NCBI GenBank assembly: GCA_029260075.1
Contig: JAJDDY010000058.1
Span: forward strand, 62,001 to 126,000
Direction: 5' to 3'
Source: Phycisphaerae bacterium
GTDB lineage: Bacteria; Planctomycetota; Phycisphaerae; UBA1845
DNA: 64,000 nucleotides
Position 1 is the stretch's first letter. Each line of letters begins with the position of its first letter. The notes beneath the pieces are model-generated. The model saw nothing but the letters and a program-made list of their open reading frames with translations. It ran no database searches and was not told where the DNA came from. A program made the position numbers and the translations under genes. Positions 38,028-51,028 of this stretch are shown here, in pieces.

Positions 38028-39164
38028 ATGGGCAGTGACGTGCCTCACGAACAAGTGGATTCACCGAATGTCTTGGCGAAGGCCGAGATAGAGGACATGA
38101 ATTCGCCCGACGCGAACGATCGCCCCGATCTGGAACCGATGACCATGTCGCTCATGGGTCGGCTCTTCGGCTTGCCGCTCTTGATCATCGGTGGCATCGT
38201 CGGCGGCGCCGTTGTAGTCGTGCTGTTGTTCGGTGGTCAGGCGGCGCCGCGCGAGCACTCGCTCGACGAGCTAGTGACCACGTTGGAATCCAGCAGTGGC
38301 GAAAAAAGCCTGGGCGTGTTGTTGCCGCGAGAGAAGGAACTTTGGCAGACCGCGCTTGAGCTAAGCATGTGGCTCAAAGATAAGCAAAGCGGTCTTGCAC
38401 CCGAAGAGGTCGAGGCGTTGGCGATGCGGCTTGGTCGGATGGTCCAGACCGATCTGGCCAATCTGACAAATGTTCCCACCGTTGGCGATGATCGAGCGAA
38501 TCAGCTGAGTGTTCGATCCAAACGGACGGAATTCCTAATCCATGCGTTGGGTCGCACCGGTCATCCGGTTGCGGTGCGGACGTTGGTTGACGTCTTGAAC
38601 GCCGGACGCGAACCGTTCGTTCAGCCGGCCATGCAAGAGCTCGCCGAGCTGCACGAGTTGCCGGCGACGCGAGCGGCCGTCGCCCCTATGCTTGCGCTTC
38701 TTGTGCGACCGACATCGGTCGAGACGAAGTTGGTAGCCTGTACCGCGCTTTCCGTGGTGGCTCGGTCGGGCGATCAGTCGGTGATTGATGGATTGACGCG
38801 CGTGCGATTGGCCGATGATGGCGACGTGGCTTGGGTGGCGTCGCTTGCGCTTGCCCGTTTGGGCAGTGTCGCCGGCAAGACGACGTTGCTGGATTTGCTG
38901 GACCGTACATTCCTGGAATCGGGCGATCGTTACCATGTCGTCGACGAGAGTGGAAAGACCGTGCGCTATCGCATGCCACCTCAACGCGTTGAGGAGATAC
39001 TCAAAGCAGCGATCGACGCCGTGACTTATTTGGCCGACGCCGATCTTTGGGGCATGGTCGATCGCCTCAAGTCGGATCCGTCACCGGCGGTGCGCGGCGT
39101 GGCGATGGCCGCGTCTGAGGCACAAAGTTGCGCGACGATCGACGGCTATTTTGCAGGGAACTAG
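38028..39164 (+). CDS. Membrane-anchored HEAT-like repeat protein, first gene of the respiratory operon
   Basis: 378 residues. A single helix (about 47-69, FGLPLLIIGGIVGGAVVVVL) follows an acidic cytoplasmic leader; the remainder (about 80-378) is helical with HEAT-like pairs, e.g. RTEFLIHALGRTGHPVAVRT and VAWVASLALARLGSVAGKTT. It binds no visible cofactor. Its stop is only 4 bases before the Rieske gene start, so it is certainly in the operon. HEAT solenoids mediate protein contacts, so an assembly factor or structural subunit of the bc complex is a fair inference. ATG 38028 is followed by other in-frame ATGs (38097, 38139) that could also serve. Confidence 0.78.
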   Translation: MGSDVPHEQVDSPNVLAKAEIEDMNSPDANDRPDLEPMTMSLMGRLFGLPLLIIGGIVGGAVVVVLLFGGQAAPREHSLDELVTTLESSSGEKSLGVLLPREKELWQTALELSMWLKDKQSGLAPEEVEALAMRLGRMVQTDLANLTNVPTVGDDRANQLSVRSKRTEFLIHALGRTGHPVAVRTLVDVLNAGREPFVQPAMQELAELHELPATRAAVAPMLALLVRPTSVETKLVACTALSVVARSGDQSVIDGLTRVRLADDGDVAWVASLALARLGSVAGKTTLLDLLDRTFLESGDRYHVVDESGKTVRYRMPPQRVEEILKAAIDAVTYLADADLWGMVDRLKSDPSPAVRGVAMAASEAQSCATIDGYFAGN

Positions 39165-39168
39165 ACCG

Positions 39169-40251
39169 ATGGCCACGAAAGAAGTCATAACGAAGGTTTG
39201 GATCGAAGAGGGTTGCATCGTCTGCGATGCGTGCGAAACCGCCGCCCCGGAAGTGTTCGAGGTACTGGAAGAGACGTGCGTGATTCGCCCGGATGCCCTG
39301 AGCGCCGAGTTTACGAAGCCGCGATCCGAAGGCATCGTCGACGCGGCAGAAGAATGTCCCACCGATGTAATCAAGTTTGAAACGGTGACGGTGGAAGCTT
39401 CCGATGCAGACGCTCCCGTCGAACCGGTTGTCTCTGCGGAAGAATCTCCAGCGGAGCAGCCGGTTGCCAAGCCTGCACCTGTCGTCAGCAAGACGACTGA
39501 ACCATCAGCCCCCAAAGCCGCGACCGCGAAGGCGAGTCCGGTCGTTTCGTCAGGCGCTGGCGATCCTGATCCTGCCATCGCGGCGTTGTTGCGTGCGGCG
39601 AAGTCGCGCGGCGGTAGCGCCGGTATTCTCGCCAACGAGGCGGCGGTACCCGGTGAAGCCGGGGCACTGCGCGGTAAGGCGGCGGCGGACCTTCCGCCGG
39701 ATGCAAGGCAGGCCAAGGTGCAAGAAGCCGCCCGTAAGGCGCGCAAGGATCCGGACGCAGCCCGTCGATCATTGATCAGCAGTGCAGCCCTTGGTATCGG
39801 ATGGAGCGCATTCGGCTTAGGAACCGGCGTCGCAGTCGGCCCCGCCTTCGCCCGTTTCATGATGCCCAACGTGCTTGAAGAGCCGGACCCGCGCGTTCGG
39901 GTTGGCCCGCTCCGGCGTTACGCAGAGATGGAGCCGGGGGCGGTCATCGAAGACTTCAAGCCGCAGGGTGTATGGATGATTCGGACACGGAATCGGATCG
40001 CCGCCCTGAGCATCATCTGCACGCACTTAGGTTGCATCCCGAACTGGTTGCCGAACGATCGAAAGTTCAAATGTCCTTGCCACGGCAGCGGGTACCGACA
40101 GAGTGGCATCAATTTCGAGGGCCCGACACCGCGTCCGCTCGAGCGGTTCCGCCTCGTCGTTGAGGATGGCGTGGTCATCGTCGACAAGAGCAAGAGGTAT
40201 CAGTTCGAATTGGGTCAGTGGGATCAGCCGGGTAGCTACCTGGAAGCATGA
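39169..40251 (+). CDS. Ferredoxin-Rieske iron-sulfur fusion protein
   Basis: 360 residues with three parts. Residues 1-70 resemble a single-cluster ferredoxin: C16-x2-C19-x2-C22 and a distal Cys63 in EECPTDVIKF. Residues about 75-195 are a Pro/Ala-rich linker. Then an ARR twin-arginine and hydrophobic anchor (about 197-232), and a Rieske domain with C284-T-H286-L-G-C289 and C302-P-C304-H305-G-S (cluster ligands C284, H286, C302, H305; C289-C304 disulfide). Rieske proteins pass electrons from quinol to cytochrome c. The ferredoxin module before the anchor would stay in the cytoplasm, an unusual arrangement. Start ATG 39169. Cytochrome b follows at 40410. Confidence 0.88.
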   Translation: MATKEVITKVWIEEGCIVCDACETAAPEVFEVLEETCVIRPDALSAEFTKPRSEGIVDAAEECPTDVIKFETVTVEASDADAPVEPVVSAEESPAEQPVAKPAPVVSKTTEPSAPKAATAKASPVVSSGAGDPDPAIAALLRAAKSRGGSAGILANEAAVPGEAGALRGKAAADLPPDARQAKVQEAARKARKDPDAARRSLISSAALGIGWSAFGLGTGVAVGPAFARFMMPNVLEEPDPRVRVGPLRRYAEMEPGAVIEDFKPQGVWMIRTRNRIAALSIICTHLGCIPNWLPNDRKFKCPCHGSGYRQSGINFEGPTPRPLERFRLVVEDGVVIVDKSKRYQFELGQWDQPGSYLEA

Positions 40252-40409: not shown

Positions 40410-41189
40410 ATGCTAGCGCGAATTACAAATTGGGTTCGAGAAGGGCAGATTTGGGGAAGCGTGTTTCGGCACGGCATTCCTCGGGACCGCCGTACTCGCG
40501 CCATGGCGATCCTGAGCAACGTGTTCTTGCACCTTCATCCGGTGGCGGTCCGAAAGAGCGGAATCCGCCTGTCGTTCACTTGGTGCATGGGCGGGCTGAC
40601 GTTCTTCCTGTTTCTTGTCGAGATCATCACCGGCGTGCTGCTGATGTTCTACTACCGTCCGACGGTGGAGTACGCCTACTTTGATATTGAAGGTCTTCGC
40701 GCCCACGTGACGCTAGGTCTTCAGCGCGAGCTGCACCGATGGGGTGCGCACGCGATGATCATTACGATCTGGCTGCACATGCTGCGCGTGTTCTTAACCG
40801 GCAGCTACAAACCGCCGCGCGAATTCAACTGGAGCGTCGGCGTTATTCTGCTTGTGCTAACGATGCTGCTGTCGTTCACGGGCTACCTGTTGCCGTGGGA
40901 TCAGTTGGCGATGTGGGCGATCACGGTGGGTTCGAACATGGCCCGCGCTACGCCGCTGGTTGGCTACGAAGGTCCGGGCGCCGCGTTCATTCAGATTGGC
41001 GGCGTGCCACTCGTTCATTCGGGATCGGATGCCCGATTCGGTCTCTTAGCCGGAACGTTCGTCGGGCCTAACGCGCTGCTGCGTTTTTACGTGTTGCACT
41101 GCGTGTTCATTCCGTTGGTTGTCACGGTTCTCCTTGCTGTGCATTTCTGGCGCGTTCGCAAGGATGGCGGAATCAGTGGGCCGCTGTAG
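40410..41189 (+). CDS. petB: Cytochrome b N-terminal half, b6-like
   Basis: 259 residues, four main transmembrane helices. Haem b ligands are the histidine pairs H109/H123 ([10 protein letters not shown] and [11 protein letters not shown]) and H230/H245 (FYVLHCVF and [12 protein letters not shown]). The 14-residue gap between the second pair is the b6f spacing. Cys59 in FTWCMGG aligns with the cysteine of b6 (FYCLGG) that covalently binds haem c-i. [11 protein letters not shown] and the end GGISGPL also match b6. It forms the quinol-oxidising half of cytochrome b together with the next gene. Start ATG 40410; 158 bases after the Rieske gene. Confidence 0.92.
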
Positions 41190-41299
41190 TTGGGCTGTTG
41201 AAGAAATCGGGCGTTGCGCGTGGCTGGGCGTTGTCCGTACGGCCGGTTCGTTGAGCGAGGCATCGGTCTCGGTAGTCAGTTAGTACTGGGTTGATATTC

Positions 41300-42406
41300 A
41301 TGCCAGGCGTACTTGCAGAAGGATCGGGTTTCGACACGATCAAGCATTGGGTCAACGTCCTTTGCCAGCCGCACTGGTTTATGATCATTGCGGTGGTCTT
41401 GCTGATTGTTTTTCTTGTGGGTTACCGGAAGGTGACCAAGCCGGTCATTGCGGGTCCGCTGGCCGCATTCGCTACGCTTGCCTTCCTGGCGAGTTGCTTT
41501 GACCCGAACTTCATACTGATCGTCAAGAAGGCGGACAACGTTCCTATCGTAATGATGATCGTCTCGATGACGTTCTTCATCTGGCTATCGTTTCGTCAAG
41601 CGGCGATCAACGACGAGCGGATGGAAAACGGGCAGCCGCTCCTTGAGGCAGGGGCTGATGACAAAGTGCTTGTCTGGCCTGATTTGGTCTACATCGAACT
41701 GATCGCCCTCGTGCTTTTTACAGCGTTCTTAATCGTGTGGGCGATCTTGTTGCGGGCTCCTTTGGAGCAACCGGCCGACCCCAACGTCGCCCCGAATCCC
41801 GCCAAGGCCCCGTGGTACTTCCTCGGTTTGCAGGAAATGCTCGTCTACTTCGATCCGTGGCTGGCGGGCGTGGTCTTCCCCGGTTTGATTGTCGTTGGAC
41901 TTATCGCTATCCCGTACATGGATAAGAACCCCCGCGGTAACGGCTACTACACGTTCAAGGAGCGGCCGTTCGCGATTAGTACGTTCATGTTCGGTTTCGT
42001 TATTTTGTGGTCTGTGTTGATCGTGTTTGGGACGTTCCTGCGGGGTCCGAACTGGAACTTCTTCGGTCCGTACGAATTCTGGGACCACAACCAGCCGGCT
42101 GCGCTGTTGAATCGCGAACCGCGAGATTTATTCTGGATCGAAATGCTGAATCGCCCGATCCCGGGCAACTACCTCTTGCGCGAACTCCCCGGAATTCTCT
42201 TGTTGGGCGGCTATTTCATTCTCGGTCCGGCCGTGTTGTATGTATTGTTTTTCCGAAAGCTCTGCCGCCAGGTCGGCATGTTGCGGTACGGGATGATGGC
42301 CTTTCTGCTGCTGACCATGCTGCTCATGCCGATAAAGATGGTGTTGCGCTGGTCGCTGAATCTGCACTATGTTGTCGCTATTACGGAATGGTTTCTCAAT
42401 GTTTGA
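41300..42406 (+). CDS. petD: Cytochrome b C-terminal half / subunit IV-like, with extra helices
   Basis: 368 residues, more than twice the size of subunit IV of b6f (about 160). Two or three helices precede the conserved core (about 26-97); the core starts near DLVYIELIALVLFTAFLIVW. The Qo-site motif is APWY at 170-173 (AKAPWYFLGLQEML) instead of PEWY. After the core, NPRGNGYYTF is followed by a helix, an FFGPYEFWD segment, and two more C-terminal helices ending LTMLLMPIKMVLRW. ATG 41300 is preferred over TTG 41291. The 110-base gap and independent start show that cytochrome b is split into two genes, not frameshifted. Confidence 0.88.
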   Translation: MPGVLAEGSGFDTIKHWVNVLCQPHWFMIIAVVLLIVFLVGYRKVTKPVIAGPLAAFATLAFLASCFDPNFILIVKKADNVPIVMMIVSMTFFIWLSFRQAAINDERMENGQPLLEAGADDKVLVWPDLVYIELIALVLFTAFLIVWAILLRAPLEQPADPNVAPNPAKAPWYFLGLQEMLVYFDPWLAGVVFPGLIVVGLIAIPYMDKNPRGNGYYTFKERPFAISTFMFGFVILWSVLIVFGTFLRGPNWNFFGPYEFWDHNQPAALLNREPRDLFWIEMLNRPIPGNYLLRELPGILLLGGYFILGPAVLYVLFFRKLCRQVGMLRYGMMAFLLLTMLLMPIKMVLRWSLNLHYVVAITEWFLNV

Positions 42407-42500: not shown

Positions 42501-45500
42501 ATGCCCGTCCCCGAACAACGTCTGTATAGTCCGAACAAGCTCAATCGTTGGTTCGCGTTCAGCAGCGTGATCATGACGGCTTCGCTGCTTTGGCTTATCG
42601 AGATCGACTACAATCGACCGTGGCGCGGTTTCCAGGAGGGGTACTTCGTCGACAAGGCAGCGCTGGCCCACTTGGACTATCTCGATGCCATGCGCAGCGA
42701 TCGGCAGCAAGAAATTGCCGAGGCGGAGCAGCGCGTTCGCGATGCCGAGGAGCTTCTTGAGCACACCAGCGGGGCGAAGCGTAGGGCGCTTGAGACGGAA
42801 CTGGTCCAGGTCGGTTTGAAGTTCAACGTAGCCGACGGCCGGTGGAGCCGCGACAGTCAGGTTCTTGAGGTCACGCGAGACGCCTACGAAAAAACCCTCA
42901 ACCGCAACGGTGCCGACAACCCCAAGACCAAGGCCGCGAACGCGAAGCTTCTCGCTGATGATGAGAAGGTGTCGCGTTTGCTTGCTGAAAAGGAAAAGTA
43001 TCAGGACGAGCAGACGCGAATAAAAGGAGCGCTTGAGGCGATTACCGTAGGCGTTCGCGGCCTGAGCAAGGTCGTACGGGACCTACGTGCGGTTGCTGAG
43101 AGCGCGATGAAAAAGGACCGCGAATATCGCGGCGTGCTGGAAGCGGGTGGCCTGCTCGGCGACTTGCCTATCGTCAGTGCGGTCATTAACGCGCCGCTGT
43201 TAGACTTTCTTGCGGCGAAGACCGCCCTTCGTCATGAGCACGTGCGCCAGCTGGTCTTGCCCGATATCCGACAGCGCCTCAATTACCTGGAAACCTATAC
43301 CACCGATCGGTGTACGACCTGTCATATTGCTATCGACGATCCAGAGTTCTCCAAAGATCGTCTTGCACGTAAGTTGGAACGATCGCTCCCCGGCATAAAC
43401 GAGGAGCTTCAGCGTCGTGGCAAAGATGGCCTAGAGCTGCCACCCGTTCCGTTGTTGACCGGAGAGGAGAAGGCTCTTCCCCCGGGCAAGGTCACCGATT
43501 ACTGGGATAAGCTGGATCGGCCACAGCAGGATGCCTATTTTGACGTGCTCTTGGGCATGGTCAATGACTACTTGAAGCGTACCGGGCGCAACGCGATCGA
43601 TCTTGGTCAACCGTTGCTCGCCCACCCTGATCTTGACTTGTACATCTCGGTCGACTCGCCGCATCCCATGTCGGCGATGGGTTGCACGGTCTGTCATGAG
43701 GGCAATCCCCAAGAAACAGACTTCGTTCAAGCCGCCCACTCTGCCGCAACCCATGAACAACGCGAGCTTTGGGAAGAGGAATACTACACTTCCGCGATGG
43801 GCCTCCCCAACGTCACCTTTGAGACTGTAGAGCACTTTTGGGATCGGCCGATGCGGCTTCGCGAGCACACCGAAGCGGCGTGCGCCAAGTGCCACAGCCA
43901 GATCACCGACATCGCCCGCTTCAACGGCGAGCGTCGAGGTGCGCGGATCAACCAGGGTCGATTCCTGTTCACGTCTGTCGGTTGTATCAATTGCCACCAG
44001 ATCGAAGAGCTTCCGGATGCGCGGCGCGTCGGTCCAAACCTCGCATACATCGCCGCCAAGCTTCAGCCCGAATTTGTGGAACAGTGGATCTACTTCCCGC
44101 AGAGTTTCCGTCCGTCTACGCGCATGCCGCACTTTTTCCTTCAAGAGAACAATCTTGACGCGACAGGCACGCCGCTTGACGAAACTCCTGAACTGCGGAC
44201 AGAAACTGAAGTGGCCGCCATAACGAAGTATCTGTTTTCCGTGTCGAAAGAGTGGACGCCGATAGAGCGCCCGGCTGACGTGACCGGCGATGCGGATCGT
44301 GGTCGGAAGCTGTTCCGATCGCTTGGCTGTCTTGCCTGTCACGCGAATCTTGCCGAGTTTGGCGAAGAATGGATCACAACCGATCTCGTTCAGCGTGAGC
44401 GTCTTGAGGAGGAGACGGCGCGTCACCGATTCCTGGGGATGACCTATACCCAGCGTGTCGAATACGCCATGGAGCATTTCCCTGGCGACATGGATACTTT
44501 TCTTCATCCTGAGAAGGCACGTTTCGATCCGAACACTGACGACAACAAGCCGACCTTCACACGCTTCGCGCCGGAACTGTCGGGTATTGGTTCCAAGGTT
44601 TCAGAAGATTGGCTGTACTCGTGGGTGATGGAGCCGACGCACTACTCGCCGGACACCATCATGCCGAGTCTGCGGTTGTTACCCGGCGAGGCTGCGGACA
44701 TCGCAGCGTATCTGGTGACGCTCAAGAATGCGGATTTTGAAGCGGGGCGGTTCGAGATCAATGACGAGCGTGGCCGCGAGGTCGACGATCTTCTTTTCTT
44801 GCTCCTTTCGTCCCAGCGGTCGGAACGCGCAAGCCGGTCTATCATTCATGACGAGGGCGGCGAGCTGACGGAGATGATCAAGGCGTTGCTCGTAGTATCG
44901 TTGGACGTGGAGCAGGCGGCGGAGGAGAAGAAGTGGGCCGCAGCGCTGGTCGCCCCGATGAGTCTTGAAGAGAAGAAGCTCATGTATCTTGGTAACAAGA
45001 TGATTGGTCACTACGGCTGCTATACGTGCCACAACATTTACGGCTTCGAGACGACGACCCCGGTGGGTACGGAGCTTACGGCGTGGGCGGAAAAACCAAT
45101 CTCTCAGCTTGACTTCGCTTTCTACGACCATGCATTCCACGATATGCGTGAGCAGCGCGAAGAAGACTTCGGTTACGTATATCGCCAGGAAGACTGGGCT
45201 AGCGAATTACGTCGGCGGTCTCCGACTGACGATGACATGCGTGAGCAGATCACACATACGCACGCCGGGTTCGCCAAGCATAAGCTGCTCAACCCCCGCA
45301 TTTGGGATCGCGAGAAGATCAAGCTGCCGTACGACAAGCTCAAAATGCCCAACTTCTATTTTACCGAGGATGAGGCTGACGCGCTGTCGACGTATCTGTT
45401 GTCGCGCATTCCCCCACGCGTAAACGACGTGCTCAAGATTGACTACAAGGGGGGTGACTTAGGGCCGATCGCCAAAGGCCGCAACCTCACGAGAGAGTTC

Positions 45501-46733
45501 AATTGCATCGCGTGCCACGAGATCGAGGACAATGTCCCGACCATCCAGCAATACTTCCGACGATCGATCGCAGACGAAGTCGAGTTCGATGCGGTCAACG
45601 CACCACCGTCGTTGTGGGGTGAGGGGGCCAAGGTTCAATACAACTGGTTCCATCGCTTCTTGCAGCAGGTTGAACCGCTACGTCCGTGGCTTCAGGTGCG
45701 GATGCCGAGTTTCAACATAACCGGCGAACAGGCTACGGTTCTTGCGGAGTACTTCGCCGCACTGAGCAACAAAGACGCCAAGGAACTGGCTGCGGCACGC
45801 ACACCAGTGCGCGCGTACATGGATTCTCAGGCGGCGCAATCCGTTGGGGCCAGCAGGAACGACGCCGCGCTCGCTGGTACGGATTGGTTCGAGCAGGATT
45901 CGCTTGCAGACGAAGCAGCGGACTTGAGGCGGTGGGGGGTCGAGCGGAAGCTTATTCGCGCCGCTGAGTTCGATCAATTGGTGGCACCGCACGCCAACGT
46001 GATTGACGCTCATCGTAGGCTTCTGGTCGGCGTGGATTTCATGCAGTCGCTATACGACGTCGCCTACCCGTTCGTGGAACCTCCGCGCGTGCATGCGCCG
46101 CGCGAACAGTTTGAGCGGGGGCAAAGGTTCTTCACCGACATGGGTTGCCTCCAGTGTCATGTATTGGGCGATATGCTCCCCGGTCCCGCAAACAATACGG
46201 ACGACTTCGTTCAGATATACCGCCTCGATGCGGTTCGCGGCGAGGGGGAAGAGGCTGTGGCGACGATCAACGGTACGCCGTATCCGGTCGGCACGGTGAT
46301 TGACGGCCTCACGATGACCGGGGCGGAGACCGTTGTGTACCCATCCGGCGATGTCGAGACTAAGGCTTATTTCTCGGGTACCAACAAGGCTGGCGAGGAC
46401 GAGCAGATCATGCTCCAAGCCGCCAGTGCTCCGAACTTGTCGTTGACGTATAGGCGTCTGCGGCGTAGCTGGGTCTATCAATGGATGTTGCAGCCCGGGT
46501 GGATTCAGCCTGGTACGAAGATGCCGCAGAACTTCGCAAACGGCGTGAGCCCGTTCTTGGGCGATCCGAGTTACCCAGGGACCAGCGCGGACCACATACA
46601 CCTGCTGGTCGACTATTTGTATCAGGCAGGTGCGACCAGTGAGCGCGCGGATCTGCCGAAACTGGTAATTGAAGACGAGGGCGAATTCGACGAGGACGAT
46701 GGTGCCCTTGACGACGAGGACTTCGACGACTAA
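42501..46733 (+). CDS. Giant membrane-anchored octaheme cytochrome c
   Basis: 1410 residues with one N-terminal helix (about 17-34), a long charged, partly coiled-coil segment (about 55-215), then eight CxxCH haem sites: C271 (CTTCH), C395 (CTVCH), C461 (CAKCH), C495 (CINCH), C610 (CLACH), C840 (CYTCH), C1002 (CIACH) and C1216 (CLQCH). Several sit in cytochrome-c-like folds with a distal Met, e.g. MPHFF, MPSLR, MPNFYF, MPSFN and MPQNFAN. The acidic C-terminus DEDDGALDDEDFDD is unusual. Position suggests it is the electron carrier from the Rieske/cytochrome b pair to the oxidase. It looks like several mono- and dihaem cytochromes fused. Start ATG 42501. Confidence 0.92.
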   Translation: MPVPEQRLYSPNKLNRWFAFSSVIMTASLLWLIEIDYNRPWRGFQEGYFVDKAALAHLDYLDAMRSDRQQEIAEAEQRVRDAEELLEHTSGAKRRALETELVQVGLKFNVADGRWSRDSQVLEVTRDAYEKTLNRNGADNPKTKAANAKLLADDEKVSRLLAEKEKYQDEQTRIKGALEAITVGVRGLSKVVRDLRAVAESAMKKDREYRGVLEAGGLLGDLPIVSAVINAPLLDFLAAKTALRHEHVRQLVLPDIRQRLNYLETYTTDRCTTCHIAIDDPEFSKDRLARKLERSLPGINEELQRRGKDGLELPPVPLLTGEEKALPPGKVTDYWDKLDRPQQDAYFDVLLGMVNDYLKRTGRNAIDLGQPLLAHPDLDLYISVDSPHPMSAMGCTVCHEGNPQETDFVQAAHSAATHEQRELWEEEYYTSAMGLPNVTFETVEHFWDRPMRLREHTEAACAKCHSQITDIARFNGERRGARINQGRFLFTSVGCINCHQIEELPDARRVGPNLAYIAAKLQPEFVEQWIYFPQSFRPSTRMPHFFLQENNLDATGTPLDETPELRTETEVAAITKYLFSVSKEWTPIERPADVTGDADRGRKLFRSLGCLACHANLAEFGEEWITTDLVQRERLEEETARHRFLGMTYTQRVEYAMEHFPGDMDTFLHPEKARFDPNTDDNKPTFTRFAPELSGIGSKVSEDWLYSWVMEPTHYSPDTIMPSLRLLPGEAADIAAYLVTLKNADFEAGRFEINDERGREVDDLLFLLLSSQRSERASRSIIHDEGGELTEMIKALLVVSLDVEQAAEEKKWAAALVAPMSLEEKKLMYLGNKMIGHYGCYTCHNIYGFETTTPVGTELTAWAEKPISQLDFAFYDHAFHDMREQREEDFGYVYRQEDWASELRRRSPTDDDMREQITHTHAGFAKHKLLNPRIWDREKIKLPYDKLKMPNFYFTEDEADALSTYLLSRIPPRVNDVLKIDYKGGDLGPIAKGRNLTREFNCIACHEIEDNVPTIQQYFRRSIADEVEFDAVNAPPSLWGEGAKVQYNWFHRFLQQVEPLRPWLQVRMPSFNITGEQATVLAEYFAALSNKDAKELAAARTPVRAYMDSQAAQSVGASRNDAALAGTDWFEQDSLADEAADLRRWGVERKLIRAAEFDQLVAPHANVIDAHRRLLVGVDFMQSLYDVAYPFVEPPRVHAPREQFERGQRFFTDMGCLQCHVLGDMLPGPANNTDDFVQIYRLDAVRGEGEEAVATINGTPYPVGTVIDGLTMTGAETVVYPSGDVETKAYFSGTNKAGEDEQIMLQAASAPNLSLTYRRLRRSWVYQWMLQPGWIQPGTKMPQNFANGVSPFLGDPSYPGTSADHIHLLVDYLYQAGATSERADLPKLVIEDEGEFDEDDGALDDEDFDD

Positions 46734-47569: not shown

Positions 47570-47701
47570 GCTGTGTGATTGGACCGGATTCGCGGTTCGG
47601 CAGGCGCCGACGACGCACGAAGAGTGTTCATTGGAACGGTCCTGCTGTTGGGTCGTTCGCTGGCGACGGATTTTCGATTGGCTGACAAGAAGAGCCCATC
47701 C

Positions 47702-48592
47702 ATGTATAGAAACCTGTTACGCATGTTGATCTTGGTGATTGGCGGTTGTGCCTTGATGGCGATTGTGTCGCCGGCGATGGCACAGGACGCGACCGCACCG
47801 TCGTTTGACGTCGAGATCACCGGTACGTATGGCCCGTTTCTACCGCCCGATGTGTCCACAACCGGTCATCAGTCTGACTTGTTGATCAACACGTTGCACT
47901 GGTTCATGGGCGTGCTGTTTGTGGGGTGGGGAATCTTTTTCGTCTACTGCCTCGTAAAGTTTCGTCAGCGACCCGGTCACAAAGCCGATCCCAAGCCTGT
48001 CAAGGCGAAGGTGTCGAAGTATGCGGAAATTGTCGTCGCCGTTTTCGAGGCTGCGCTGTTGGTTGGACTGTCCATCCCGGTTTGGGCGGAGGTGAAGGAA
48101 GGATTTCCTACGGAAGAGGAAAACCCCCAGCACGTTCGCGTAGTGGCCGAGCAGTTCGCGTGGAACTTCCACTACCCCGGCCCTGACGGCGTGTTCGGTC
48201 GCGCCGGTCCTCAGTTCATAGATATGGCCAGCAACATTCTCGGGATCGATCCGGACGACGAGCACGGCGCCGACGACATCGTTAGCGGTGAGTTACATGT
48301 TGTTGCCGGGCGACCGGTGATCGCTGACGTCACATCCAAAGATGTGATTCATAGCTTTTCGATACCGGTGCTTCGGCTGAAGCAAGATGTGATACCGGGC
48401 ATGCGCATACCCGTTTGGTTCAATACCAAAGATGACTCAGCCGGAAACTACGAAGTCGCCTGCGCCCAGTTATGTGGGAACAATCACTATTCCATGAGGG
48501 CGCTCATGGTCATCCACGCAACGCAGAGTGACGTCGATGCGTGGTTGGAATCGGCCAAGCCGGAAGAGTTTGACGAAGACGAATTCGATTAA
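47702..48592 (+). CDS. coxB: Cytochrome c oxidase subunit II
   Basis: 296 residues with a signal peptide, two transmembrane helices (about 61-83 and 109-128) and a periplasmic CuA domain. CuA ligands: H217 in VIHSFSIP, and C254-x-Q256-x-C258-x3-H262-x2-M265 in CAQLCGNNHYSM. Gln replaces the more common Glu at position 256, whose backbone carbonyl is the ligand, so CuA should still form. No fused cytochrome c domain is present, so electrons must come from a separate carrier. ATG 47702 is used; the frame is open to 47579 but without a signal peptide. Ends in an acidic DEDEFD tail. Confidence 0.95.
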   Translation: MYRNLLRMLILVIGGCALMAIVSPAMAQDATAPSFDVEITGTYGPFLPPDVSTTGHQSDLLINTLHWFMGVLFVGWGIFFVYCLVKFRQRPGHKADPKPVKAKVSKYAEIVVAVFEAALLVGLSIPVWAEVKEGFPTEEENPQHVRVVAEQFAWNFHYPGPDGVFGRAGPQFIDMASNILGIDPDDEHGADDIVSGELHVVAGRPVIADVTSKDVIHSFSIPVLRLKQDVIPGMRIPVWFNTKDDSAGNYEVACAQLCGNNHYSMRALMVIHATQSDVDAWLESAKPEEFDEDEFD

Positions 48593-48604
48593 GGATAAGC
48601 CTGC

Positions 48605-50401
48605 ATGAGTGGCGAGCACCACAAAGAATTGGGTTTCTTCAGGAAGTACGTGTTTTCGGTCGACCACAAGGTCATCGGAATTCAGTATGGCATTACGGCG
48701 CTGTGCTTCCTGTTCTTCGGTTTCTGCCTCATCATGATGATACGCTGGCAGCTCGCCTATCCTGGAGAGCCAATGCCGTTAATCGGTGGTCTGCTTGAGC
48801 GCTTGATGGGGGCGAAGTGGGCTGAGGAGTTCATGCCTGGCGGGCGAATGACGCCTGATTTCTACAATGCGCTCGGGGCCATGCATGGAACGATTATGAT
48901 CTTCCTCGGCGTGGTCCCGCTCCTGGTAGGTGCGTTCGGAAACTATGTCATGCCGTTGCAAATCGGCGCTCCAGACATGGCGTTTCCGAAAATCAACATG
49001 GCCAGCTATTGGTGCTTCGCCGCCGGTGGCGTCATTATGCTCTCAAGTTTTCTCGTACCCGGCGGGGCAGCCAACTCTGGTTGGACGTCCTATCCGCCGC
49101 TGTCTGCCATCGCGCAGCCCCCCGCAGCCGGTTGGCCCATACTCTTTTCCGGTCAAACATTGTGGCTGGTCGGTATGGTGGCGTTGATCACGTCGTCGCT
49201 TCTGGGTTCGGTCAATTTCATCGTGACCATCATTCAGTTGCGGGTTAAGGGTCTTACGATGTTTCGCCTTCCGTTCTTCGTCTGGGCTCAGTTCGTGACG
49301 TCGTTCCTTCTTCTCCTGGCCTTCCCTCCACTCGAGGCGGCCGGTGTATTGCAGCTCATGGATCGCGTAGCCGGAACGAGTTTCTTCCTCCCTGAGGGGT
49401 TGGTGGTGAGCGGTCAGGTGGCCATGGTACAGGGTCGAGAGATAGCGGGTGGAGGTAATCCACTCTTGTGGCAGCACCTGTTTTGGTTCCTCGCGCATCC
49501 GGAGGTATATGTGCTGATTCTTCCCGCGATGGGGATTGTTGCAGAGATCATCGCCAACAACACACGTAAGCCGCTTTGGGGCTATCGAGCGTTGGTTTAC
49601 TCCACCGTGTTCCTCGGTTTCATGTCGTTCATCGTGTGGGCGCACCATATGTTCATGACGGGGATGGGCACGTCGATCAGTGCGTTCTTTGCCACGACTA
49701 CGATGATCATTTCGATACCGTCGGTGATCATTCTCACCGCGCTCATCATCAGTCTGTACAATGGCGCGATTCGCTTCACCACGCCGATGCTCTTTGCGCT
49801 CGCGTTCCTGCCGATGTTCGCGATCGGCGGGCTTACCGGGCTGCCGCTTGGCCTGCCCGTATCAGACATCCCGCTCCACGACACCTACTATGTAATCGGT
49901 CACTTTCACTACGTCGTCGCACCGGGAACGATCCTGGCCATTTTCGGGGGCATCTATTACTGGTTTCCGAAGATCACCGGTCGAAAGATGAACGATACAC
50001 TCGGCAGGTTGCATTTCGTGTTCACGTTCATTTGCATGAATGTGGTGTTCATGCCCATGTTCTTCCAGGGATTGGCTGGCGTGTCGCGCCGTCTGTTCGA
50101 CCAAACTCAGTATTCTTGGGGTGCGGCTGTTCAGGGGTGGACAATCACGTCGTCGTGGGGTGCGTGGATGCTCGGCGTGGCTCAAATCTTCTTCTTCATT
50201 AACTTCTTCTGGAGTATTTGGGGCGGAAAGAAGGTTTCAAACAACCCGTGGGAGGCGACGACCATCGAATGGTCGGCGCCGTCACCGCCGCCACATGGCA
50301 ACTTCGCGACCGAGCCTGTTGTGTATCGTGGTCCCTACGAGTACAGCGTTCCGGGTATGTCCAAAGATTTCTTCCCGCAAACTGCGGTTACGGAGGCGTA
50401 A
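48605..50401 (+). CDS. coxA: Cytochrome c oxidase subunit I
   Basis: 598 residues, about twelve helices. Haem a and haem a3/CuB ligands are present: GAMHGTIM near the start, AHPEVYVLILP (CuB His, Glu and the cross-linked Tyr), WAHHMFMTG, and HDTYYVIGHFHYVV. D-channel entrance Asp lies in GAPDMAFPKIN. In the K-channel helix, the lysine of PTGIKV is replaced (PSVIIL, Ile376). Starts 12 bases after coxB; ribosome site AAGGA. The C-terminal tail has a 30-residue proline-rich segment. Type A heme-copper oxidase, proton-pumping presumed. Confidence 0.96.
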   Translation: MSGEHHKELGFFRKYVFSVDHKVIGIQYGITALCFLFFGFCLIMMIRWQLAYPGEPMPLIGGLLERLMGAKWAEEFMPGGRMTPDFYNALGAMHGTIMIFLGVVPLLVGAFGNYVMPLQIGAPDMAFPKINMASYWCFAAGGVIMLSSFLVPGGAANSGWTSYPPLSAIAQPPAAGWPILFSGQTLWLVGMVALITSSLLGSVNFIVTIIQLRVKGLTMFRLPFFVWAQFVTSFLLLLAFPPLEAAGVLQLMDRVAGTSFFLPEGLVVSGQVAMVQGREIAGGGNPLLWQHLFWFLAHPEVYVLILPAMGIVAEIIANNTRKPLWGYRALVYSTVFLGFMSFIVWAHHMFMTGMGTSISAFFATTTMIISIPSVIILTALIISLYNGAIRFTTPMLFALAFLPMFAIGGLTGLPLGLPVSDIPLHDTYYVIGHFHYVVAPGTILAIFGGIYYWFPKITGRKMNDTLGRLHFVFTFICMNVVFMPMFFQGLAGVSRRLFDQTQYSWGAAVQGWTITSSWGAWMLGVAQIFFFINFFWSIWGGKKVSNNPWEATTIEWSAPSPPPHGNFATEPVVYRGPYEYSVPGMSKDFFPQTAVTEA

Positions 50402-50404
50402 TCA

Positions 50405-51028
50405 GTGTCTTCAGAGTTACTACCCTATACCGTCAAACCGCATCCCGTGACGGGTGTCTACAGCGGCAAGCTGGGCGTTTGGCTCTTCCTGGCGTCCGAG
50501 GTCATGCTGTTCGGCGCGTTCTTCTCGGCGTACATTCTTCTCAAGGTCGGGGCACCGCTGGAAGGGCCTGCACACTGGCCTCTCCACTCTGAGCGTCATA
50601 TGAGCTGGATGATCGGGGGGTTCAACACGCTCGTGCTGATCATCTCCAGCGTCACCATGGTGATGGCCTGGGTGTCGCTCAAGTCGGGCAACTTCGGCAA
50701 GGCCAGGATGTTGCTCGGCGCCACGGTCGCGCTGGCGGTTCTGTTTCTCGTGATCAAGATTACGATGGAGTACATACCGCATTGGCGCGATGGCCTGACG
50801 ACCAACACGAGCAACTTCTGGGGCATCTACTACACAATGACGGGGCTTCACGGCGTGCATATTCTCGGTGGCATTGTCGTCATAAGTTACTTCATCGGGC
50901 CAGGGAGCAAGTTGTGGCACGAGAATCCGGAGTATTACACGAACCGGATCGAGTGTACGGGGTTGTACTGGCACTTTGTCGACTTGGTGTGGATTTTCCT
51001 GTTCCCGACGTTGTACTTGATGAGCTAG
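50405..51028 (+). CDS. coxC: Cytochrome c oxidase subunit III
   Basis: 207 residues, five helices, the shorter form of subunit III. It stabilises the D-pathway of subunit I. Recognisable: GKLGVWLFLASEVMLFGAFF, HTxGLHGxHILGG-like TGLHGVHILGG, and the final EYYTNRIECTGLYWHFVDLV. The start is GTG 50405, three bases after the coxA stop; no in-frame ATG is near. A CAGTTTAC inverted repeat and the subunit IV gene follow. Confidence 0.94.
   Translation: MSSELLPYTVKPHPVTGVYSGKLGVWLFLASEVMLFGAFFSAYILLKVGAPLEGPAHWPLHSERHMSWMIGGFNTLVLIISSVTMVMAWVSLKSGNFGKARMLLGATVALAVLFLVIKITMEYIPHWRDGLTTNTSNFWGIYYTMTGLHGVHILGGIVVISYFIGPGSKLWHENPEYYTNRIECTGLYWHFVDLVWIFLFPTLYLMS

Follow-up and report, generated by a model that had tools for sequence, protein, structure and literature searches.

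The ferredoxin-Rieske gene described here lies in a 64,000-nucleotide stretch of a Phycisphaerae contig, hereafter the window. The gene order is HEAT-repeat protein, ferredoxin-Rieske, cytochrome b6-like subunit, subunit IV-like protein, a cytochrome c with eight CxxCH motifs and a CarboxypepD_reg-domain protein, on which a cupredoxin match fell below the cut-off; these are followed by COX2, COX1, COX3, CtaA, a UbiA-type gene, two ABC-transporter genes and SCO1. The principal features are:

38028..39164, + strand: HEAT-repeat protein gene (HEAT_2 26.9 bits, under the cut-off of 27.7).
39169..40251, + strand: ferredoxin-Rieske fusion gene, 360 aa (translation, Pfam, homologues).
39169..39396, + strand: ferredoxin domain, residues 1-76, Fer4_13, with C16/C19/C22/C63 and the invariant C37 (profile, sequence, model).
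39391..39753, + strand: Ala/Pro-rich linker, residues 75-195 (composition, alignment, model).
39763..39864, + strand: twin-arginine motif R199-R200 and predicted membrane anchor, about residues 199-232 (RR in 38/38; anchor read from sequence).
39895..40242, + strand: Rieske [2Fe-2S] domain, residues 243-358 (Pfam; closest solved chain 9rk3_A).
40410..41189, + strand: cytochrome b6-like subunit, with the four haem histidines kept.
41291..42406, + strand: subunit IV-like protein (Pfam, alignment).
42501..46733, + strand: large cytochrome c, 1410 aa, with eight CxxCH motifs.
47579..51028, + strand: COX2, COX1 and COX3 genes of a haem-copper oxidase adjoining the complex.

Ferredoxin, linker and Rieske domain are encoded in one open frame, whose start ATG (39169) comes 4 bases after the end (39164) of the preceding HEAT ORF. 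When the window protein was searched against Pfam, Fer4_13 matched residues 13-69 (27.1 bits against a cut-off of 24.5, E 6.8e-6) and Rieske matched residues 268-327 (31.8 bits, cut-off 20.3); Fer4_15 scored 17.9, below its cut-off of 22.4. Both Rieske boxes are complete (C284-T-H286-L-G-C289 and C302-P-C304-H305-G-S307). The linker (residues 75-195) is composed of 26% Ala and 12% Pro and contains a predicted helix, DPxIxALLxAAxxRGG, near residues 134-149, and R199-R200 lies directly N-terminal to a hydrophobic stretch. The arrangement proposed in an earlier note on this DNA, C16-x2-C19-x2-C22 plus Cys63, a linker, a twin-arginine anchor and a complete Rieske domain, was borne out in full by the translation and the Pfam matches.

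Fifty-one fusion ORFs were read from the window and from the loci of relatives, and 38 of these are distinct. Since the three parts form one open frame here and in the 38 distinct fusions, the fusion is not an assembly join; a chance motif or a sequencing join was likewise ruled out by the conservation and the profile scores. Loss of the ferredoxin cysteines from orthologues had been set beforehand as a refuting test. C16, C19, C22 and C63 were found in 38/38 distinct fusions, as were P64, C37, R199-R200 and the Rieske residues C284, H286, C289, C302 and C304. H305 and S307 are present in 37 of the 38, the remaining row ending at a contig edge; in the 37 rows that have the column S307 is always kept, and position 309 is Y in 20 and F in 17. 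Mean pairwise identity among the distinct fusions (lowest value in parentheses) is 0.71 (0.45) for the ferredoxin, 0.67 (0.47) for the Rieske domain and 0.37 (0.16) for the linker. The DPxIxALLxAAxxRGG motif is found in most of the 38 and is weaker or absent in L169, L177, L084-L086, L189 and L190. C37 (window positions 39277-39279) is a fifth ferredoxin cysteine, invariant in all 38; among 16 aligned sequences, a cysteine able to pair with it was seen only in L084-L086.

In sequence, the N-terminus most resembles the [4Fe-4S] ferredoxin of Bacillus thermoproteolyticus (1iqz, E 9.8e-5). An AlphaFold2 model of residues 1-76, built from 37 sequences, reached modest confidence (pLDDT 74.5, pTM 0.57). 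Foldseek searches with this model returned 9a4s_A and 1iqz, both at E 7.6e-4, and Desulfovibrio africanus ferredoxin I (1fxr) at a target TM of 0.73; 2 of the 194 matches had E values of at most 0.001. The proposal that residues 1-70 are ferredoxin-like is therefore upheld both by this modest-confidence model, which matches [4Fe-4S] ferredoxins, and by the Fer4_13 score above cut-off. The domain shares its cysteine pattern and modelled fold with the single-cluster [4Fe-4S] ferredoxins of B. thermoproteolyticus (1iqz) and D. africanus (Fd I), but differs from them in being tethered to a membrane subunit and in having the extra invariant C37. As judged from sequence and model, it is a single-cluster [4Fe-4S]-type ferredoxin, presumably with its cluster bound. 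The full-length model (13 sequences) had a mean pLDDT of 54, with linker residues 79-137 under 50 and an anchor of low confidence. Rieske proteins have an N-in topology. Because the ferredoxin precedes the twin-arginine anchor of such a protein, it is predicted to be cytoplasmic, its arm probably lying at the inner face of the membrane. We know of no Rieske protein from the known bc and b6f complexes that carries an N-terminal ferredoxin domain.

In a sample of the class, 67 of 397 genomes gave matches at E values of at most 1e-20; the genome searches scored the top few candidates per genome, and the 67 were sorted by hand. The same two-domain order, which the earlier note had suggested seeking in other Planctomycetota, recurs as a full-length fusion in 50 of the 67. 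G718 has a fusion with a short linker, the fusion of G691 is spread over two contigs, and those of G733 and G700 end at contig edges. In G524 (L172) an ORF for ferredoxin plus linker and a Rieske ORF overlap by 29 bases in different frames; this was not counted as a separate state because an assembly frameshift is possible. Six of the 67 have a Rieske match without ferredoxin (G561, read as L180, and five genomes of genus g268, of which G409 was the one read), and G632 and G694 have a free ferredoxin match alone. In a sample of the phylum, 227 of 392 genomes gave a match; among the matches listed, the four full-length rows are the window's own genome and three others of its class. Among the best 80 of 161 hits in a scan of named genomes there were 12 full fusions, all from Planctomycetota MAGs, two more at contig edges and two Rieske relatives without ferredoxin (L018, L019). 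A plasmid origin was rejected: tblastn against plasmids returned 20 records with partial matches, none covering 80%.

The ferredoxin also occurs as a separate gene. In family f103 all four genomes with an unfused Rieske match (G608, G614, G712 and G730) have it as the gene that comes after subunit IV on that strand. The ferredoxin ORF directly follows subunit IV in L175, L176 and L178; in L179 (G730) cytochrome b and subunit IV form one ORF and the ferredoxin ORF lies 366 bases further on. CxxCxxC and C-P are kept in all four separate proteins, and that of L175 (G614), searched alone, matched Fer4_13 at 40.7 bits. No ferredoxin gene was found near the ferredoxin-less complexes of L087-L140 and L142 (three flavodoxin loci set aside); many of these loci end inside subunit IV, so that a gene beyond it would have escaped notice.

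A flavodoxin occupies the same place in a second group. Among the matches listed, 4 of 392 phylum genomes encode a flavodoxin domain before the twin-arginine Rieske anchor, all in family f30 (G265, G151, G068 and G226; loci L182-L185). These genes lie upstream of cytochrome b, subunit IV and a multihaem cytochrome c. The G265 protein, searched alone, matched Flavodoxin_1 at E 2.5e-20, and the four proteins match the G151 query along its length with 81-100% identity; the matched stretch of G226 contains one TGA, and its own 429-aa ORF is open. At least 12 further f30 genomes match over the flavodoxin part alone, and at eight such loci no Rieske or cytochrome b match was found within 1.5 kb or less on each side.

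A cytochrome b tree was made by a quick method from 62 rows (61 plus spinach, whose branch is very long; the partial L142 was left out), with the root placed for drawing only. The 21 ferredoxin-linked rows, 17 fused and four with a separate ferredoxin, form one set (SH-aLRT 99), with one change between the ferredoxin rows and the rest, and may all trace to one event. The four flavodoxin rows form another set (SH-aLRT 99), which sits inside a set of SH-aLRT 100 together with two module-less rows and four rows labelled anammox-type; that label is a guess, residue numbering having been compared for L140 alone. Since the ferredoxin and flavodoxin rows fall in separate sets, at least two lineages would have placed a small low-potential carrier on the n-side.

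Among the other long Rieske N-termini compared, a ferredoxin motif was seen only in L084-L086, from the same class; in the remainder there are Ala/Pro stretches of low complexity, repeats of the KSTADILAAARAQ type, zinc-ribbon-like repeats (L090/L104) or a flavodoxin. Ahead of the Rieske anchor, L104 (G061) has a pair of CxxC repeats that resemble zinc ribbons; L103 (G130), which also belongs to family f56, has comparable repeats that lack the cysteines. STADILAAARAQ-like motifs, often repeated, occur in the Rieske N-termini of L108, L111, L112, L117, L119, L121, L123-L126, L128, L131 and L133. They resemble the DPxIxALLxAAxxRGG helix of the ferredoxin-fusion linker, and from this similarity the two are perhaps a common n-side docking motif.

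The fusion is encoded with cytochrome b and subunit IV in the window and in most relatives; G303 (family f9) is an exception. In that family (L188, which is G303, L085 and L086) the HEAT-like and ferredoxin-Rieske genes stand apart from the cytochrome b-subunit IV genes, which in G303 are on a different contig. A relative of the HEAT gene lies upstream of most fusions read, L084/L187, L177 and L191 being without one. Among the 14 window proteins scanned between 38028 and 56546, an interval in which, beyond 48500, the scan took ORFs of at least 180 aa, neither a cytochrome f nor an NAD(P) oxidoreductase was found; the eight-CxxCH cytochrome c follows the complex in place of the former.

Residues that could ligate n-side haems were compared by alignment. 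C59 of the window cytochrome b aligns with C35 of b6, which we take to hold haem c_N. When subunit IV is aligned with its b6f counterpart, E136 stands at residue 40 (F) and is a candidate for the second ligand of that haem. The cysteine is lost in G718, G730 (L179) and all four flavodoxin rows, and was discarded as a requirement. H41 of the window cytochrome b aligns with His62 of the L140 protein. In L140, His62 is the first His of N-x-F-x-H-x-H-P and is followed by R266-K267; these are the residues that the available text of PMC12954380 names for Kustd1481. R250/K251 of the window protein align with residues named for the predicted interface haem of Kustd1481 and are also kept in ordinary b6. 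The motif N-x-F-x-H-x-H-P is present in 62/62 cytochrome b rows, 33 of them labelled as without ferredoxin or flavodoxin (spinach b6, whose N-terminus is outside the alignment, is not among the 62), so that the interface-haem motif (HxHP) was ruled out as a mark of ferredoxin function.

The closest solved chain to the Rieske C-terminus is 9rk3_A, named a Rieske protein (E 1.5e-36), which we take to be one of the Kuenenia structures of PMC12954380. The available part of that paper discusses how electrons may leave anammox Rieske/cytochrome b complexes on the n-side for an NAD(P) oxidoreductase, and predicts an interface haem b in these complexes, with residues named for Kustd1481. Judged against that text, the Kuenenia stuttgartiensis complexes (Kuste4569-4574 and Kustd1480-1485) and the window complex have in common a b6-like cytochrome b with subunit IV, a multihaem cytochrome c and a low-potential redox module, which in the window complex is predicted to be on the n-side, and the c_N cysteine and interface-haem His align. 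The same text (PMC12954380) describes the Kuenenia module as an NAD(P) oxidoreductase in its own right, carrying FAD and several FeS clusters, whereas here it would be a one-cluster ferredoxin fused to the Rieske protein. The best reading of this analogy is that the ferredoxin arm would be the counterpart of the NAD(P)-oxidoreductase subunit.

Compared with chloroplast and cyanobacterial b6f, whose ferredoxin is soluble rather than tethered and whose Rieske protein, to our knowledge, has no N-terminal ferredoxin, the window complex has the eight-CxxCH cytochrome c and no cytochrome f was seen in the proteins scanned. It shares with b6f the split cytochrome b6 and subunit IV, the c_N cysteine and a proposed n-side ferredoxin entry, which for b6f (a ferredoxin-FNR-haem c_n route) is put forward for cyclic electron flow in the available text of PMC9342900. 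According to the accessible part of PMC11266412, a genome survey of the class, no Phycisphaerales genome has a bc1 complex, and the word ferredoxin does not occur in its main text. Fusions of a carrier with its partner enzyme would escape the 200-residue limit of PMC7039249, as far as its available text goes. The titles and abstract beginnings listed from the open-licence literature yielded no description of a ferredoxin- or flavodoxin-Rieske fusion. An n-side module on a Rieske/cytochrome b complex is already known from anammox bacteria; a ferredoxin or flavodoxin fused to the Rieske protein appears new within the open-licence literature searched.

We propose that the gene product serves as Rieske subunit in a b6f-like Rieske/cytochrome b complex, and that a swinging arm of Ala and Pro would tether a [4Fe-4S] ferredoxin to the n-side end of this protein. 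At the p-side its Rieske domain would, like that of related complexes, accept the first electron from quinol and send it on towards the eight-haem cytochrome c and the oxidase. At the n-side the arm would let the ferredoxin dock close to the dimer centre and exchange electrons with b_N, c_N and an interface haem b of the kind predicted for anammox complexes, before swinging away to a cytoplasmic partner. The complex would then combine two activities, quinol:cytochrome c oxidoreductase and ferredoxin:quinone oxidoreductase. That the putative cluster acts as such a tethered n-side relay between a cytoplasmic partner and the cytochrome b haems is, in our estimate, somewhat better than an even bet. 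Together, the fusion and its flavodoxin variant suggest that the complex itself wires the quinone pool to the cell's low-potential carriers. A redox carrier accounts better than a structural component for the separate ferredoxin gene of relatives and for the flavodoxin that another lineage has in this position. Of the three roles suggested in the earlier note, a sensor, a link to the quinol site and a structural element, the electron link is accordingly the one best supported, with electron passage itself presumed.

For the direction of flow we lean modestly towards input, from reduced ferredoxin to quinone, over output by quinone-based bifurcation, because input is downhill and two POR-family loci in the genome could reduce ferredoxin. 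The same genome has one NuoF, and a Fer4_13 profile search of it gave no match besides the tethered ferredoxin. POR is a weak indicator of direction and says little about it, since it was found in 8/8 genomes tested, whether with fused ferredoxin, separate ferredoxin or flavodoxin, and also in 11/14 control genomes. In the output form, quinol bifurcation, its high-potential branch leading to Rieske and oxidase, would drive the second electron onto the tethered ferredoxin and so supply the cell with reduced ferredoxin, as proposed for NAD(P)H in anammox bacteria. Consistent with this are the related Rieske type (9rk3_A as best solved match, S307 kept in 37/37), the Glu aligned at the c_N ligand position of subunit IV, the oxidase next door as an acceptor, and the alignment of cytochrome b H41, R250 and K251 with the predicted interface-haem residues of Kustd1481 (PMC12954380, available text); yet R250 and K251 are kept in ordinary b6 too. 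Output would also need n-side quinone reduction to be suppressed, a larger problem by the account of PMC12954380 itself in its available part, POR-family enzymes could already reduce ferredoxin, and a partner for the reduced product is hypothetical. We give this form a small though appreciable chance; it is the lesser share of the relay explanation and is not to be added to it.

Two further explanations dispense with net electron flow or with a redox role in the complex. The cluster could report the cytoplasmic redox state and alter Rieske mobility or the activity of the complex, a role with which the invariant fifth cysteine C37, to which no function is assigned, and the position of the arm on the moving Rieske subunit would agree. 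A sensor or gate of this kind is nevertheless quite unlikely in our view: the flavodoxin and free ferredoxin of relatives fit an electron carrier better, and an Ala/Pro linker of 121 residues is expected to be a poor transmitter of movement. The ferredoxin might instead aid cluster insertion, hold the precursor folded before export or merely anchor neighbours; in favour of this, Rieske proteins receive their cluster ahead of Tat export, and many planctomycete Rieske proteins do have other long N-terminal extensions without ferredoxin. The large number of relatives lacking the domain and the retention of its four cluster cysteines in all 38 fusions argue against a maturation or structural role, which we consider the least probable of the explanations.

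Taken with its relatives, the tethered relay leads to a wider and tentative idea, for which we would put the chances a little short of even: the planctomycete Rieske/cytochrome b complexes may be a single family whose low-potential modules on the n-side are interchangeable (a ferredoxin either tethered or encoded in the operon, a tethered flavodoxin, or an NAD(P) oxidoreductase), in which complex III would serve as a ferredoxin/flavodoxin:quinone oxidoreductase or as a quinone-based bifurcating enzyme, hard-wired in the genome. Research on cyclic electron flow has long asked whether ferredoxin feeds a b6f-type complex directly on the n-side, and low-potential reductions driven by a Rieske/cytochrome b complex are an open proposal for anammox bacteria. 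A covalently attached ferredoxin, with relatives that have flavodoxin at the same place, offers a ready test object for both.

A comparable arrangement was observed in complex I of Acidobacteriota (Holophagaceae), where NuoC is preceded by a tandem pair of ferredoxin domains that belong to this type and come with Ala/Pro linkers. Four such sequences were compared (L023:5995-7488, L028:5995-7530, L030:5995-7626 and L038:5995-7506), with Complex1_30kDa matched by Pfam in L023, L028 and L030; L025, L032, L039, L040 and L044 are included solely by ferredoxin matches on longer ORFs. In L028 the genes run NuoA-B-C-D-H-I-J-K-L, and NuoE, F and G are absent from the place between D and H. By its predicted domain order, the Holophagaceae ferredoxin-NuoC protein is again a tethered ferredoxin on a respiratory complex.
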